A stretch of DNA of 64,000 bases from Candidatus Zixiibacteriota bacterium (lineage in GTDB: Bacteria; Zixibacteria; MSB-5A5; GN15; FEB-12): contig JBFLZR010000008.1 of the NCBI GenBank assembly GCA_040756055.1, positions 62,001 to 126,000 of the forward strand, given 5' to 3'. The notes under the pieces were generated by a model. It was given only the letters and a program-made list of their open reading frames with translations. It had not been told where the DNA came from and did no database searches. Made by a program: the position numbers and the translations under genes. Of this stretch, positions 50,905 to 58,784 are shown in pieces; position 1 is the first letter of the stretch; every line of letters begins with the position of its first letter.

Positions 50905-50958
50905 GGCGAACCTGCGTTCACCCGATCTGGGTAGTCAAATTGCGAGGATGGCGGTGTG

Positions 50959-51732
50959 ATGTCTTATTTCGACGCCGCCATACTTGGTATTCTACAGGGA
51001 CTCACCGAGTTCTTACCGGTGTCATCCTCGGGGCATCTTGTGCTCGCTCAAGCCATCCTCGGAGTGAAACAATCCGGTGTGTCTTTTGAGGTCCTGGTAC
51101 ACCTCGGTTCTCTGCTGGCGGTGCTGGTATATTTCCGAAGCCGCATATTCAGATTAGTCAAAAGTCTTTTCGATAACGGGATGGTCGCTGAGCGGAAGAT
51201 TGTGTTGGGTTTGATTGTCGCCACCCTTCCGGCGGTTATCGCCGCTCTTTTGTTTAAGGACTTTTTTGAAGCCGCGTTTTCCAATCCGCTGATGACATCG
51301 ATTATGCTCTTCGTCACGGGTATCATCTTGATCTCCACGGTGCTGGTAAAGAAGCGGAGTGGGGTGGTAACGATTCCAAAGGCGCTGCTGATGGGGATTG
51401 GACAGGCGGTGGCTATTATACCGGGTATTTCTCGCTCCGGGACCACAATCGCCACTGGCATAATGGCGGGAGTGGAACCGGCGGTCGCTGCAGAGTTCTC
51501 GTTCCTGCTTTCCATACCGGCCATTCTTGGCGCGGTTGTCTTCAAATCGAGAGATCTTCTGGCCTTGGAACCATCCTTGATGCCGCAATATGTACTGGGA
51601 ATGATTACAACTTTCGTAGCGTCGTTGTTTGCCGTTTACGCGGTTCTGGCGGTAATCAAGAGAGGGAAATTTGTCCTCTTTGGTTATTATTGTTTTGCTG
51701 CCGGTGCTCTCGGTTTGTATCTTTTCCTTTAG
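50959..51732 (+). CDS. uppP: Undecaprenyl-diphosphate phosphatase
   Basis: UppP (BacA) recycles undecaprenyl pyrophosphate, the carrier for peptidoglycan, O-antigen and exopolysaccharide. The family signature is plain: ILGILQGLTEFLPVSSSGHL near the N-terminus, and the second motif PGISRSGTTIATGIMAG. There are about eight membrane helices over 257 residues. The ATG at 50959 is chosen; a GTG lies one codon earlier. The stop is immediately followed by the ATG of the heptosyltransferase-phosphatase fusion, indicating coupling with lipopolysaccharide-type sugar synthesis. Confidence 0.96.
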   Translation: MSYFDAAILGILQGLTEFLPVSSSGHLVLAQAILGVKQSGVSFEVLVHLGSLLAVLVYFRSRIFRLVKSLFDNGMVAERKIVLGLIVATLPAVIAALLFKDFFEAAFSNPLMTSIMLFVTGIILISTVLVKKRSGVVTIPKALLMGIGQAVAIIPGISRSGTTIATGIMAGVEPAVAAEFSFLLSIPAILGAVVFKSRDLLALEPSLMPQYVLGMITTFVASLFAVYAVLAVIKRGKFVLFGYYCFAAGALGLYLFL

Positions 51733-53316
51733 ATGAAACAGAATATCCTCGTTATACGTCTCGGCTCGCTGGGTGATATTGTTCTTACCTCGGCCGCGCT
51801 GGTCAATCTGAAAATAAAATATCCTCGCTCTCACCTGACCTTCCTTTGCAAAGAAAAGTATGCCGAGGTGGTTGGGTGTATGGGTACCGTTGATGAAATC
51901 CGCGCCGTACCCGATAATGTTGGTCTGCCCGCGTATGTGCGGCTTCTGATGCAGCTCGACAAGCGCAATTACAATTTCGTCATCGATCTCCACGGTAATG
52001 CGCGTTCCTGGATGGCACGGGAGGCTGTAACGGCCGATCGAACGGTACGGTATCCCAAGCGGCGGCTTGAGCGCATTCTGGCTGTCAAGGGCAGGTCACT
52101 GCCGGTGTCCTGGCCGCATACTATCGACCTTTATAATGAAGCGGTTATTGAGGCCGGCGGCGCTGCCTTCTGCCGGCGGCCGATCATGTCTGTTCCGGGA
52201 GTCGTTGATGGCGAAAAACTCGAATCCCCACAATTGTCCCGGCATGATTACGTCGTGGTGGCACCGGGCGCCGCGCACGAGAACAAACGCTGGCCTATAG
52301 AGAGGTTTGTCGAAACGGCAGTGGAGCTTCATCGCCATCGAGGCGTTTCGATTGTCTGGATGGTTACCGGGTCTGATAGAGAGAAAGAATCGCCCAGAGC
52401 CAGGATACCTACGCGGAATTTCTATGAGGCGGTTGATTGTTCGTTTGCCGAAGTGTTAAGGATATTGTCGGGAGCTGCTTTGACGATAGCAAATGACTCC
52501 GGTATTGCTCATGCTTCATCAGCCGTAGGAGTGCCGGTAATCGCCATTTTCGGGCCTACCCATCCAACGCTCGGTTTTGCTCCCCGGGGGATGTATGACC
52601 GTGTGATGCAAGTTGACGAATACTGCCGACCATGTTCGCTGCACGGTAAGAAGCCTTGCTATCGCGATAAAAGACACTGTTTCGAACGGATTAGCGCCGA
52701 GATGGTCGTCGCTGAAGCGTCCGAGATTCACCACCGGAGACTTGGGGAAGCAAAGGCTGTATTTGTTGATCGTGACGGTACGATTATTCGCGATAAGAAT
52801 TTTCTTTCGGATCCCGACGATATTGAATTCGAGACAGGATCTGTGGAAGGCCTTAGGATACTAGAACAGGCTGGATTTAAATTAGTCATCGTTTCCAATC
52901 AGTCGGGTGTGGCGAGGGGCTTTTTTGGCGCGGAGACGGTGGACAGGGTAAATGGTCGGTTACTGGAGATGCTGGCAGCGGGACATGTAGATATCGCGTC
53001 GGTGCAGTACTGTCCTCATCATCCGATGGGTAGCGTAAATCGGTACGCGATCAAGTGTGAATGCCGCAAGCCGGGCGCAGCGATGGCGGAGGATGCCGCC
53101 CATCAGCTTGGCATCAATATCCGTAAATCTTATGTGATTGGCGACAAGCTGGACGATGTCAATTTTGGCCGGGTGGTGGGGGCGCAGCCTATTATGGTGA
53201 AAACGGGTTACGGGATAACTCAGGCGGCGGATCTGGAAGGCCCTGCCTTCTACCGGGGAGTTCCGGTTGTCGCCAATCTTTTGGAGGCGGCGCGGATGAT
53301 TGTGTCGCGAAAATGA
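51733..53316 (+). CDS. Heptosyltransferase fused to a GmhB-type heptose bisphosphate phosphatase
   Basis: Residues 1 to about 330 form a GT9 ADP-heptose glycosyltransferase: ILVIRLGSLGDIVLTSAAL at the N-terminus, VVAPGAAHENKRWPIERF, and the nucleotide-sugar site IANDSGIAHASSAVGVPVI. From residue 342 a complete HAD-IIIA phosphatase follows, with D346 and D348 in VDRDGTII, SNQSGVARG, the zinc-type motif CPHHP...CECRKP and IGDKLDDV. This matches GmhB, which makes D-glycero-D-manno-heptose 1-phosphate. No stop or ribosome site lies between the parts. The fusion links precursor dephosphorylation with transfer to the lipopolysaccharide core. The gene abuts uppP and precedes a radical SAM gene. Confidence 0.92.
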   Translation: MKQNILVIRLGSLGDIVLTSAALVNLKIKYPRSHLTFLCKEKYAEVVGCMGTVDEIRAVPDNVGLPAYVRLLMQLDKRNYNFVIDLHGNARSWMAREAVTADRTVRYPKRRLERILAVKGRSLPVSWPHTIDLYNEAVIEAGGAAFCRRPIMSVPGVVDGEKLESPQLSRHDYVVVAPGAAHENKRWPIERFVETAVELHRHRGVSIVWMVTGSDREKESPRARIPTRNFYEAVDCSFAEVLRILSGAALTIANDSGIAHASSAVGVPVIAIFGPTHPTLGFAPRGMYDRVMQVDEYCRPCSLHGKKPCYRDKRHCFERISAEMVVAEASEIHHRRLGEAKAVFVDRDGTIIRDKNFLSDPDDIEFETGSVEGLRILEQAGFKLVIVSNQSGVARGFFGAETVDRVNGRLLEMLAAGHVDIASVQYCPHHPMGSVNRYAIKCECRKPGAAMAEDAAHQLGINIRKSYVIGDKLDDVNFGRVVGAQPIMVKTGYGITQAADLEGPAFYRGVPVVANLLEAARMIVSRK

Positions 53317-53317
53317 A

Positions 53318-54307
53318 ATGATTAAAACGGCTCAATATTTCGACAAGGATGGTCAGGCCGGAGTGGTGTGCCGGCTCTGTCCCGCCGAGTGTCATCTTCA
53401 GCCCGGCAAGGCCGGTATCTGCCGCAACAGGTTCAATCAGGATGGTATGCTGGTCACGGACAATTACGGTGAACTGGTGACTATCGCTATTGACCCGATC
53501 GAGAAAAAGCCGCTTTATCATTTCTATCCGGGTAGAGATATTCTGTCCACCGGACCGAACGGATGTAACCTCGGGTGTGTTCACTGCCAGAACTGGACCA
53601 TCTCACAGAAGAAAGTGCAGACATCATATGTGGCGCCCGCCGAACTGGTCCAGACGGCTCGTCAGCATGGATCGATGGGTATTGCATTTACTTACACTGA
53701 GCCGCTGATATGGTTTGAGTACATTATGGATGTCGCTCCGCTGCTTCGGGATCAGGATATGAAGGTGGTGCTGGTGTCCAATGGGTATATCAATGAGAAG
53801 CCGCTGAGGGAGCTCCTGCCGATGGTGGATGCCGCGAATATCGATTTGAAGGGAATCAGTCCGGAGTTTTACGCAAAGTACTGCAAGGGGAAGCTCCAGC
53901 CGGTGCTCGATACCATAAGGATAATGTCTGAGGCGGGGGTGCATCTGGAGCTGACGAATCTGATTATTCCGGGTCAGAATGACTCCGATGAAGATTTGAA
54001 AGGTATTGCCGATTTCGTGGCTTCGGTGAATGATTCGATCCCTCTTCACTTCTCCGCGTATCATCCTGATTACAAGGCATCGGCTCCGGCGACGCCGCTG
54101 GAGACAATGTTGAAGGCGAGGGAGATAGCGTTGTCGCGGCTCAAATATGTCTATGTTGGCAATATTGTGACCGAAAGCGGCTCCAACACGTATTGCCCCG
54201 GCTGTGGAGCACTTCTGATAGAGAGAAGCCATTATTTTACGTCGATAAGGGCGCTTTCCGGCTCTAAGTGCGAAGCCTGTGGATTTGACACGGGCATAAT
54301 TCAGTAG
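53318..54307 (+). CDS. amrS: AmmeMemoRadiSam-system radical SAM enzyme (AmrS)
   Basis: This 329-residue radical SAM protein has the cluster motif CNLGCVHCQNW. Family features are the N-terminal CRLCPAECHLQPGKAGICR and IDPIEKKPLYHFYPG, and the glycine-rich GMGIAFTYTEP-like segment. The C-terminal zinc-type CPGCGALL and CEACGFDTG are also present. This matches the AmrS component, usually next to MEMO (AmrB) and AMMECR1 (AmrA) proteins. Neither partner is in the window. The start at 53318 follows the previous stop by one base; a GTG at 53300 overlaps the upstream gene. The reaction is unknown. Confidence 0.9.
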   Translation: MIKTAQYFDKDGQAGVVCRLCPAECHLQPGKAGICRNRFNQDGMLVTDNYGELVTIAIDPIEKKPLYHFYPGRDILSTGPNGCNLGCVHCQNWTISQKKVQTSYVAPAELVQTARQHGSMGIAFTYTEPLIWFEYIMDVAPLLRDQDMKVVLVSNGYINEKPLRELLPMVDAANIDLKGISPEFYAKYCKGKLQPVLDTIRIMSEAGVHLELTNLIIPGQNDSDEDLKGIADFVASVNDSIPLHFSAYHPDYKASAPATPLETMLKAREIALSRLKYVYVGNIVTESGSNTYCPGCGALLIERSHYFTSIRALSGSKCEACGFDTGIIQ

Positions 54308-54455
54308 TGGGCTTCGGCGGCCGATATTAAGTACATGGCCGGTGAAGCGGCGGAGCCCGGCTGCAAGTTGGATATTTCCGGAACTTGAATCGTCTGTTAT
54401 GGTGTTAAAATATATAGACACAAAAGAGTTACCCGCGCGAAGGGTCAGGTCCGTA

Positions 54456-57278
54456 ATGAAAGCTTTCCGGCCGAAGCTGCCGTATAATTCGCTAAAACTG
54501 CTTGTCATCTGTGTACTTATCCTTGCTGCCGGTTCGGGTTCGGTTAAGGCCCAGTTTTATTTCGGCAAGAATAAGGTCCAGTATACCGAGTTCGACTGGC
54601 AGGTTATGACCACGGAGCATTTTCGGATATACTTTTATTCCGAGGAGTCCGAGGTGGCGGCGGTGGCCGCAAAATCTGCGGAAGATTCTTATCGCAAGCT
54701 GGCGGCCAAATTCAATCATGAAGTACCACATCTAATTCCCCTTATCATTTACTCGACCCCGGGATATTTCTCGCAGACCAACACCACGCCCTACTTGCTG
54801 CCGGAAGGGGTGGCCGGTTTTACCGAATTCATGAAGGGCAGGGTGGTGGTGCCGTTTCACGGTTCCTATCATGATTTCGATCATGTGATTCGTCACGAGC
54901 TGGTGCACGTTTTCACGCTCTCCAAGCTCGGCGAGGTGGTGTCGCGCCGCGCCAGGATTCGCTACACCTATCCACCGCTCTGGTTTACCGAGGGCATCGC
55001 GGAGTTCTGGTCGAAAGACTGGGACACCGAGGCCGACATGGTGGTAAAGGACATGGTGCTCAACGGCATGCTCTTTACGATCCCGAATATGTACCAGGTG
55101 AACGGGACATTTTATATGTACAAGCTGGGCGAGTCTATCTGTCAATTCATTGATTCCACTTATGGTTCGGACAAGCTCACCCTGATATTCGAGAACTGGT
55201 ACAAGGGGCGGACGTTCGATGATGTGGTCAAGATGACCCTTGGTGATGATCTCAAGGAGCTTTCGCGCAAGTGGGAATACAGTCTTAAGAAGAAATACTA
55301 TCCGGAGCTTGACAGCCTGGGGCTGCCGGATATGGAATCCATTAATGTAACCAAAGACGGGTATAACGTTGAGGCGGCTCCGATAGTCTGGGATGATGGC
55401 TCCGGCAAGCGCGACTGGATCGTTTTCAAGGCGAACCGGATGGGTTATTCGGCGATTTATATGAAGCCGGCCGATGACGGCCGCAACGGGGAGCCGGGCA
55501 AGCATGTCAAGACGCTGGTGAAAGGGGAGCGATCGTCGAATTACGAATCGCTGCATTTGCTTCGTTCCGGTATCGATGCCACGGATTCCGGGTTGATTGT
55601 CTTTTCCTCGAAATCGAAAGAGAAAGATGTTCTCTATCTTTATGATCTGAATGAGGGCAAGGTAACCAAGCGATATGAGCTTGAGGAGCTGGTGGCGGCG
55701 CGTTCGCCGAGGTTTTCGCCCGATGGCCGCAAGGTTGTGTTCTCCGGCAGCCGCAAGAACGGCACGACGGACTTGTATATACTGGATATGACGGATGGGT
55801 CCTACTGGGCCGTTACTTATGATTTCTATTTCGATACCGACCCGGCTTTCACACCCGACGGATCGGCGATCGTGTTCTCGTCGGATCGTTCGCGCGATGG
55901 TCCGCGCGGCGGGCTCAATCTGTTTCGAGTCAGTCTTGATGATGGCATTATCAAACAGCTCACGTATGGTTTCCACATGGATCAGTCGCCGGAGTGCACC
56001 GAAGACGGTGTCTATTTCTCCTCCGACAGGGACGGTACTTTCAACCTTTTTTCCCTTAGCAATGATGGTGTTTTGACGAAACAGTCGGAGTATGCCACCG
56101 CGGCGCTCGACCCGAGAGTCACCTCTGACGGCAGGAAGTTGATCTACACCGGTTACCAGAAATTGGGTTTCCAGATTTTCACTATGGATGTGCCGGAGAA
56201 AGAGAAAGTAATCGAGAGGGAACCGTCTTACAGCCTGGAGTCGTGGCAGCCGAAGAAAATCGACGGCAAGTACCGTCAGGCATCGCTTAGGTACGACACC
56301 GACTATTCGCTCGACATAGCGCAATCGTCGATCGGCTATGATCCCGTTTATGGTTCTATCGGCGGGCTGCAGCTGGCGATGTCCGATGTGCTGGGGAACC
56401 ACTCGTTGTATTTCCTGCTCACCAACACGGCCACCGATAAGGATGATTTTTTGGAATCGTTCAATGTGGGCGTGACCTATCTGAACCGGGAGAGACGTTT
56501 GAACTGGGGTATCGGCGGCTTTCATCTGTTCGACGAGTATTATAATGATTACGACGGTTACTATTTCGAGCGGCAGGCGGGAGGTATCGCGCTTCTGAGC
56601 TATCCGTTCTCGAAATTCCACCGGATTGATTTTACGACGCTGGGGCGTTATTCGAATCGCGAGAAAGCGTTCGGGCTGACCAATAGAGAGAAGTTTCTGT
56701 TTACGAACTACGTGAGTTGGATATACGATAACTCCCTCTGGGATTTTACCGGGCCGATTGAAGGACGAAGGTATAATTTCTCGGTGGGCATAACGACCTC
56801 GGTGGGGGATCTCAGGACTTTCAGCCGTCAGGCCTCGGTTGACCTTCGTCATTATTTCCGTATGGGTAAGTATTCGGCTTTCGCCAGTCGGTTGTTTGCT
56901 TTCAGCAGCACGGGAGAGGAGCCGCAGCGGATTTATTTCGGCGGAAGCTGGTCGTTCAGAGGATTTGACCGCCGGTATTTCTATAACCGGAATATACTTT
57001 TTGCCTCTCATGAACTTCGTTTCCCGCTCATCGATAATTTGCTTATTGGTTTCCCGTTTGGCGGACTTGGCTTCAGGGGCATAAGGGGCGCGATTTTCTT
57101 CGATACCGGCTCAGCCTGGGATGACGAATTCGACCAGTTTCTCGGGTCATTCGGCGGCGGGTTCAGGGTGTCGCTGGGATACCTGGTGGTGCTTCGGTTC
57201 GACTTCAGCCGAACGACGGATTTCGAGACGATCAGTCCGAGCACCGACTTTGACTTTTTCTTCGGGTGGAATTTCTGA
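54456..57278 (+). CDS. Metallopeptidase-like / TolB-propeller / Omp85-type barrel fusion protein
   Basis: This 940-residue exported protein combines three modules. After a signal peptide (KLLVICVLILAAGSGSVKAQ) comes a gluzincin-like domain. Its HExxH is at residues 147-151 (RHELVHVF) and the third-ligand Glu is probably E179 in WFTEGIAEFWS. Residues about 310-590 carry TolB/PD40 propeller repeats (RFSPDGRKVVFSGS, AFTPDGSAIVFSSD). The last 300 residues are an Omp85-like beta-barrel, with FGGSWSFRGFDRR matching the conserved RG-F/Y motif and an FFFGWNF C-terminal strand. It probably sits in the outer membrane with the peptidase and propeller in the periplasm. The TGA overlaps the ATG of the next gene. 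Confidence 0.85.
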   Translation: MKAFRPKLPYNSLKLLVICVLILAAGSGSVKAQFYFGKNKVQYTEFDWQVMTTEHFRIYFYSEESEVAAVAAKSAEDSYRKLAAKFNHEVPHLIPLIIYSTPGYFSQTNTTPYLLPEGVAGFTEFMKGRVVVPFHGSYHDFDHVIRHELVHVFTLSKLGEVVSRRARIRYTYPPLWFTEGIAEFWSKDWDTEADMVVKDMVLNGMLFTIPNMYQVNGTFYMYKLGESICQFIDSTYGSDKLTLIFENWYKGRTFDDVVKMTLGDDLKELSRKWEYSLKKKYYPELDSLGLPDMESINVTKDGYNVEAAPIVWDDGSGKRDWIVFKANRMGYSAIYMKPADDGRNGEPGKHVKTLVKGERSSNYESLHLLRSGIDATDSGLIVFSSKSKEKDVLYLYDLNEGKVTKRYELEELVAARSPRFSPDGRKVVFSGSRKNGTTDLYILDMTDGSYWAVTYDFYFDTDPAFTPDGSAIVFSSDRSRDGPRGGLNLFRVSLDDGIIKQLTYGFHMDQSPECTEDGVYFSSDRDGTFNLFSLSNDGVLTKQSEYATAALDPRVTSDGRKLIYTGYQKLGFQIFTMDVPEKEKVIEREPSYSLESWQPKKIDGKYRQASLRYDTDYSLDIAQSSIGYDPVYGSIGGLQLAMSDVLGNHSLYFLLTNTATDKDDFLESFNVGVTYLNRERRLNWGIGGFHLFDEYYNDYDGYYFERQAGGIALLSYPFSKFHRIDFTTLGRYSNREKAFGLTNREKFLFTNYVSWIYDNSLWDFTGPIEGRRYNFSVGITTSVGDLRTFSRQASVDLRHYFRMGKYSAFASRLFAFSSTGEEPQRIYFGGSWSFRGFDRRYFYNRNILFASHELRFPLIDNLLIGFPFGGLGFRGIRGAIFFDTGSAWDDEFDQFLGSFGGGFRVSLGYLVVLRFDFSRTTDFETISPSTDFDFFFGWNF

Positions 57279-58450
57279 TGAAAAGCAGAATACTTATAGC
57301 TGCCGTTGCGTCGCTGACACTGGTATCGCTGGTCGGATGCGCCAGTAAGTATCGTCTCGAGCGGTTCAAGGTGCAGGAGGGTGCCCAGTGGCCGTATCAT
57401 CGGGGGGACGCCCAGTCGACCGGTTCTGTGTTGGAGGGGGCGTTTGATGGTAAGCTCGATGTTATATGGGAATACAGATCCAACGACAAGCCGGCCGGCC
57501 CCCTGACTGTCTATCACAACCGACTGATTTATCCGGGTGCCCGTCACAAGATCAAATTTATCGATATGGAAACGGGGCATTTCGAGGGTCAGATTAAATC
57601 CGGTGGGAATCCGCAGACCGGTGTGGTGGTGGCGGACTCGCTGGCCTATTTCGCAATTTCGCCCCGAACCAACCTTCTCAAGTGTGTCAATCTGAGGAAC
57701 GGCGACATTATCTGGGAGAGGCCATTCGTTAATGCTTCCAATGGAGGTTTGCTGGTCGACGATTTGCTGGTTATCGGTTCCAGTATTGGTGATTTGATGG
57801 CGCTGAGTCAGCTCAGCGGTGAGGTAAAATGGCGTTTTCTGGCTGATATGCCGCTGGCTGTGGCGCCCACGTTTGCGATGGGGAAGATTTTTCAGCCGGG
57901 GGGTAACGGAATGTTGTTCGCGCTGTCGCCACTGAGCGGGAAGCTTGTGTGGAAGGTCAAACTGGAGAATGCTATCGCGGCTGCGGTGTCGGCCGGGGAG
58001 TTTGTTTACGCGGGGGACCTTGATGGCTTCGTGTATGCCATTAATTCTGACGACGGTTCGATAGTGTGGAAACGTCAGGTGGGCGGCCCGGTGTGGACTT
58101 CGCCGGCCGTGGCCGAAGGACGGATATTTGTCGGGCATTCGGGGGGGGAGATGGTGGCGCTGGATGCTATCAGCGGCGAGATTATCTGGAGATTCGATGC
58201 TGCCGATGTTGTCAGGTCGTCGGCTGTCGTTGTAGGCGGGTATGTTGTTTTTGGCAATGCCAGCGGGATGTTGTTTTCTCTGGACGCATTGACTGGCAGG
58301 CTGGTCGAGGAGCGTCAGCTTGACGGTCCCATTGTTGCTGCTCCTGTGACCAATGGTCAGAATGTGGTTGTGGCGACCGATGAGGGGTTGGTTGTGTGTC
58401 TGGGCGATGCTCCACAGGAGCCGCAGGCGCAGGTGTCTGACGGGGATTGA
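57278..58450 (+). CDS. PQQ-propeller lipoprotein (BamB-like)
   Basis: This 390-residue lipoprotein has a signal of SRILIAAVASLTLVSLVGC with a lipobox Cys. The rest is a seven- or eight-bladed propeller with repeated blade motifs such as LDGFVYAINSDDGSIVWKRQ, GGEMVALDAISGEIIWRFD and LFALSPLSGKLVWKVK. BamB has the same fold and helps outer membrane protein assembly. Other PQQ-repeat proteins are dehydrogenase-like, but no catalytic or PQQ ligands were seen. It starts inside the stop codon of the peptidase-barrel gene, so the two proteins likely work together at the outer membrane. Confidence 0.82.
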   Translation: MKSRILIAAVASLTLVSLVGCASKYRLERFKVQEGAQWPYHRGDAQSTGSVLEGAFDGKLDVIWEYRSNDKPAGPLTVYHNRLIYPGARHKIKFIDMETGHFEGQIKSGGNPQTGVVVADSLAYFAISPRTNLLKCVNLRNGDIIWERPFVNASNGGLLVDDLLVIGSSIGDLMALSQLSGEVKWRFLADMPLAVAPTFAMGKIFQPGGNGMLFALSPLSGKLVWKVKLENAIAAAVSAGEFVYAGDLDGFVYAINSDDGSIVWKRQVGGPVWTSPAVAEGRIFVGHSGGEMVALDAISGEIIWRFDAADVVRSSAVVVGGYVVFGNASGMLFSLDALTGRLVEERQLDGPIVAAPVTNGQNVVVATDEGLVVCLGDAPQEPQAQVSDGD

Positions 58451-58784
58451 GTCTTTCGTATTTATTTCTTCAGGAATCATTTGTAATTTCATAGCGTTAG
58501 GGCTTTTAGGCGGATTTGGGTTCGTTTCGTTAATTTTATGATTCCGACGCGCAGCGGTGCGTTTGATAAATCAAACGCCAACCGATGCGCCAGGTATATT
58601 TTTTGATGTCAGGCCCAAACGAGTTTGAGCCTGCCACCCACCGCGTCGGAGTGACAGCAGAGTCCCGGGATGGCAGGAGACTGATCCCGCCCTTGGCGGG
58701 ACTGCCCTACTTGTACTGCGATCGCGCGGCGGGTTCGAAGACGGACCCGCCCTACAGGGTTTAAGTATATGCCATCCATTTGTG

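Follow-up and report, generated by a model that had tools for sequence, protein, structure and literature searches.

A Peptidase_MA, propeller and Omp85 barrel protein encoded beside a BamB-like lipoprotein in Zixibacteria

Introduction

Bacteria have no energy source in the periplasm, and how they tell sound outer-membrane proteins from stalled ones there is an open question. A gene pair on the plus strand of the window (the whole 64,000-nucleotide stretch of Candidatus Zixiibacteriota DNA analysed here) bears on that question: the first gene (54456-57278) encodes a 940-residue protein in which a Peptidase_MA domain, a TolB-type propeller and an Omp85-type barrel follow one another on a single chain, and the second (57278-58450) encodes a 390-residue, BamB-like propeller lipoprotein. 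What would a bacterium gain from joining a peptidase to a barrel of this class, and does the lipoprotein belong to the same system? A sequence-only reading of the locus had proposed a self-contained outer membrane machine that might insert, process or degrade outer membrane proteins, or export a cleaved product. Here, profile searches, structure prediction and comparison across genomes are used to weigh these possibilities.

Architecture of the barrel protein

The open reading frame runs from an ATG at 54456 to a stop at 57276-57278. A GTG at 54342 opens a longer alternative frame; the ATG at 54456 leads directly into a signal peptide (residues 1-32, 54456-54551), whose cleavage site (VKA/QF) is placed by eye from sequence and alignment, and Q33 is invariant across the family. 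The mature chain comprises: a Peptidase_MA domain (residues 33-290, 54552-55325), with an HELVH zinc-binding motif at residues 147-151 (54894-54908) and a probable third zinc ligand, E179 (54990-54992), on the next helix; a six-bladed TolB/PD40 propeller (residues 300-600, 55353-56255); a linker (residues 601-637, 56256-56366); and an Omp85-type barrel of about 16 strands with a terminal Phe (residues 638-940, 56367-57275), which carries the RGF motif of loop 6 at residues 835-837 (56958-56966). HMM searches and AlphaFold2 agree on this order of domains, which the sequence-only reading had already set out, and its coordinates and numbering of the RGF and of H147, E148, H151 and E179 are exact in the sequence.

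Searches with the 940-residue protein recovered Pfam Peptidase_MA_2 at residues 77-278 (E 1.3e-8, above cut-off) and PD40 (E 1.6e-19), together with a TolB propeller (E 8.4e-31) and Omp85_fam at residues 827-938 (E 3.8e-7) among the NCBIfam models; against TIGR02800 (TolB) the protein scores 107.3 bits, below the cut-off of 343.15. Peptidase_MA_2 and PD40 are matched in all 22 aligned full-length family members. For the barrel, Pfam Omp85 is matched at E 0.01 in six of the 22 full-length orthologs (best 5.3e-14), and the BamA model TIGR03303 matches every one of the 22 barrels searched alone (E <= 0.01; best 1.4e-9), the barrel from the window reaching 21.2 bits, far below the cut-off of that model. 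Compared by hhalign with three Omp85 barrels encoded elsewhere in the genome, the family barrels match at 97.3% probability (E 2.3e-11), and the RG motifs line up. Of the two halves of the barrel, the C-terminal one resembles Omp85 strongly and the N-terminal one weakly.

The AlphaFold2 model, built from 22 sequences, has a mean pLDDT of 73.5 and a pTM of 0.71. It begins with a signal helix and an alpha-helical peptidase domain, in which HELVH falls within the helix of residues 138-163 and E179 within that of residues 175-186, continues through six four-stranded blades spanning residues 303 to 578, and ends in a barrel of some 15-16 strands predicted with moderate confidence, in line with the barrel proposed from the sequence. 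The RGF falls in L6, the long loop that joins the sixth-last strand to the fifth-last, which is where BamA has its loop 6. No POTRA domain was found in a Pfam scan of the protein taken to E 1, and the model leaves no room for one between propeller and barrel. On these profile matches and this model, the protein is an Omp85 barrel, but not a POTRA-bearing Omp85 protein.

Comparison with solved structures was less informative for the peptidase and barrel than for the propeller: the peptidase-domain profile had no match among PDB sequences; the barrel profile had weak matches only (a POTRA-domain protein at E 0.0024 and TamA at 0.083, with a chance match on top); and in a Foldseek search with the whole chain, hits to the propeller crowded out the rest, leaving no independent match to barrel or peptidase. 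The linker ahead of the barrel (YDTDYSLDIAQSSIGYDP) is predicted with low confidence, contains three invariant residues (D620, A622 and Q623) and may be a plug or gate segment. Opposite the gene pair, the minus strand holds open frames at 54732-57011 (759 codons) and 57008-58492 (494 codons). The former was rejected as a gene, being interrupted by 10-17 stops in relatives of the same genus, and seems to be a chance by-product of codon use.

The lipoprotein partner

The ATG of the second gene, at 57278, overlaps the upstream stop by the single base noticed in the sequence-only reading (TGATG). Its product has a lipobox cysteine, C21 (57338-57340), in a column invariant across a 17-row alignment, and is predicted to fold as an eight-bladed PQQ propeller (pLDDT 88.9). 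Designed propellers and YxaL top the Foldseek matches, and BamB follows closely (TM about 0.7-0.8); counting natural proteins, BamB is among the best fold matches in the PDB. Against the BamB equivalog TIGR03300 the lipoprotein scores 127.6 bits, under the curated cut-off of 285.2. The earlier assignment to the BamB type thus holds for the fold and the cysteine and fails at the family threshold: the lipoprotein is BamB-like by fold, not a certified BamB. The residues after C21 are non-acidic, which would suit a lipoprotein on the periplasmic side. It is the only PQQ_2/BamB-like protein in a genome that is 97.7% complete.

Conservation of the zinc site and of the barrel motifs

If catalysis were under selection, the peptidase domain would be expected to be well conserved and its zinc residues retained. 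All 35 orthologs and all 7 paralogs compared (42/42) retain H147, E148, H151 and E179, bearing out the sequence-only choice of these four residues for a zinc site, here judged from sequence and secondary structure only. The arrangement of an HExxH with a downstream Glu on the next helix, read from the sequence and the predicted secondary structure, is that of the gluzincin-like Peptidase_MA superfamily, and the zinc peptidase domain is apparently intact. Compared with Bacteroidota orthologs, the peptidase domain averages 50% identity and has 70 invariant positions, while the barrel averages 41% and the propeller 32%, so that the peptidase is the best conserved of the main domains and the propeller the least. 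Together, the zinc site and the domain around it argue for a working enzyme. A conserved zinc site would also fit substrates other than outer-membrane proteins. Within the barrel, every one of the 35 orthologs has R835 and G836, the third position of the motif being F, Y, W or L, and a strand of the form FFDxGxxW keeps F881, D883 and W888 throughout.

Spread and gene pairing

The closest named records to the 940-residue protein come from Candidatus Zixiibacteriota MAGs, and the family profile is matched in all 118 Zixibacteria genomes sampled, a presence throughout the phylum that rules out a one-off fusion or assembly artefact. From this match list 108 ortholog loci were taken, in 98 of which the lipoprotein gene follows on the same strand no more than 1 kb downstream, at a median gap of 15 nt. 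Read by their coordinates, the remaining ten loci sort as follows: in seven, the locus ends at the edge of its contig or close to it, or the lipoprotein gene opens a different contig; in two, the lipoprotein gene is 2.3-2.5 kb downstream; and in one, it lies inside another contig. Full-length orthologs, 40% identical, also occur in MAGs named as Ignavibacteria and Bacteroidota, where the lipoprotein gene is usually the neighbour as well. Among 296 Bacteroidota genomes, about 68 have an ortholog (>800 bits) and 168 encode one or more proteins that match the profile at E 1e-60; the lipoprotein gene lies within 1.5 kb in 17 of the 19 Bacteroidota orthologs checked. The coupling suggested from one locus is therefore seen across two phyla.

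The gene upstream of the pair differs between phyla, being an AmmeMemoRadiSam radical SAM enzyme in the window and a phosphoglucose/phosphomannose isomerase in Ignavibacteria, and it is thus the pair, not the neighbourhood, that is kept. As the pair is deeply conserved, the two proteins are likely, on this genomic evidence, to share a joint function.

The radical SAM gene (53300-54307) scores 338.8 bits against TIGR04337, over the cut-off, and an upstream gene of similar length is seen in two other Zixibacteria loci and not in Ignavibacteria. Further upstream, 51733-53316 encodes a 527-residue chain combining a family-9 glycosyltransferase (heptosyltransferase) with a HAD-type phosphatase, and adjoins an undecaprenyl-diphosphatase gene, BacA/UppP (50956-51732).

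Paralog and other envelope genes of the genome

The description as self-contained is made doubtful by the rest of the genome, which encodes elsewhere a canonical BamA (848 aa, over cut-off), BamD-like proteins and a TolB that is likewise over cut-off. Replacement of BamA or TolB by the pair was rejected for this reason, and by its gene content the genome has the pair as an addition to BAM rather than in its place. This 3.3 Mb genome encodes at least eight Omp85-type barrels, among them BamA, a patatin-Omp85 protein and two shorter proteins that resemble BamA.

A paralog occupies a 1141-codon frame on contig C1 of the same genome (C1:662538-665888; L121:6536-9892), with a Peptidase_MA domain, a propeller and a barrel more like TamL. 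Its relatives keep the same zinc residues in 7 of 7 cases, and no propeller lipoprotein gene was found beside the paralog or its relatives. Profile matches of the paralog class occur in over half of the 296 Bacteroidota genomes sampled. In a maximum-likelihood tree of 31 proteins (midpoint root for drawing only), orthologs and paralogs separate with full support and both phyla appear on each side. The simplest reading of the tree is that the duplication predates the split of Zixibacteria and Bacteroidota, with later transfer possible.

What might the gene pair do?

A barrel with an even number of strands has both ends in the periplasm. For this reason, and because PlpD, the only enzyme-Omp85 protein to have been tested, has a periplasmic enzyme domain (PMC11116518), the peptidase and both propellers would face that compartment. 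The reading we prefer, at a probability of roughly 45%, is that the two genes encode a periplasm-facing processing or quality-control protease built on an Omp85 barrel. By sequence and model, the barrel protein is exported and has an apparently intact zinc peptidase and a six-bladed propeller standing where POTRA domains would otherwise be; the co-encoded lipoprotein would dock on it. The propellers may hold unfolded or strand-exposing envelope proteins, which the peptidase would cleave as they meet the barrel, either processing precursors or removing stalled barrels. Such a role would resemble that of E. coli BepA, a periplasmic zinc peptidase that meets LptD on BAM and then assists or degrades it (PMC8423444), but with the peptidase fused to its own Omp85 barrel and working beside an ordinary BamA/BamD machine. 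E. coli BamB docks on the POTRA domains of BamA (PMC13067283); as the barrel protein has none, any binding of the lipoprotein must differ from the BamB-BamA contact.

A broader proposal, which we regard as doubtful, is that of a second outer-membrane assembly line parallel to BAM, universally kept in Zixibacteria and common to Ignavibacteria-type Bacteroidota. One gene pair would then supply insertion through the Omp85 barrel, client capture through two propellers, one of them a lipoprotein, and proteolytic triage through the zinc peptidase.

That the peptidase might trim one specific precursor, the product leaving through the barrel as in a TpsB-like exporter with a built-in peptidase, is suggested by the exporters (FhaC/TpsB) among Omp85 barrels, which have the loop-6 RG in common with this family, and by weak matches of the ShlB/FhaC model to 2 of 22 family members. 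We judge such a dedicated translocon unlikely, given that no conserved candidate substrate gene was found beside the pair, the flanking genes differing between phyla, and that PlpD, formerly read as an exporter of this kind, has been shown not to export its domain (PMC11116518). It is similarly improbable that the peptidase domain mainly binds peptides while the barrel inserts a subset of outer-membrane proteins, as a second, specialised BAM: the Omp85 barrel motifs, the BamB-like partner, the presence throughout the phylum and the occurrence beside a complete BAM in the one genome checked would all fit, but binding alone would not need complete conservation of the catalytic E148 and of every ligand. 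Least likely is an envelope-linking or lipid/peptidoglycan-related factor whose propeller contacts Pal-like or cell-wall proteins, for although TolB is what the propeller matches best in both sequence and fold, the genome's own TolB scores above its family cut-off and, among the three main domains, conservation is weakest in the propeller.

Relation to known systems and significance

The combination of propeller and Omp85 barrel is known. In 2014, Heinz and Lithgow named a WD40-Omp85 subfamily, compared it to BamA fused with BamB, and counted subfamilies with non-POTRA N-termini as Omp85 members (PMC4104836); a later definition includes at least one POTRA domain (PMC11116518). WD40-Omp85 proteins share with the barrel protein a TolB-like propeller N-terminal to the barrel, but in the main text of the 2014 paper 'peptidase' occurs 0 times and a linked BamB-like lipoprotein goes unmentioned; the 'Metallo' subfamily of that text is defined by PF00149, a domain different from Peptidase_MA (PMC4104836). 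PlpD, a patatin-Omp85 protein, likewise has an enzyme domain N-terminal to its barrel, but one that is a lipase rather than a zinc peptidase, with POTRA present and without propellers (PMC11116518). BAM, BamB and BepA together offer an Omp85 barrel, an eight-bladed propeller lipoprotein and a periplasmic zinc peptidase, but as separate proteins, BepA being an unfused M48 peptidase and BamB docking on POTRA (PMC8423444, PMC13067283). Bacteroidota BAM has extra, phylum-specific parts, among them the six-bladed propeller BamI of B. thetaiotaomicron, but these sit on BamA at the cell surface (PMC12611786, PMC12578637). Among the open-licence papers searched, no description was found of a zinc-peptidase domain in WD40-Omp85 proteins or of a linked lipoprotein.

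WD40-Omp85 was still listed among the subfamilies not well characterised in a 2024 paper (PMC11116518), and the pair could give it a first function. It bears also on whether BamB-like lipoproteins exist outside proteobacteria, the group in which BamB arose according to a 2026 review (PMC13067283), the presence of BamB in any Bacteroidota having been called unclear (PMC12578637). By its distribution across genomes, this appears to be an ancient, conserved two-gene unit in a little-studied bacterial phylum, and a peptidase physically joined to an Omp85 barrel would allow a direct test of how insertion and proteolysis are connected.
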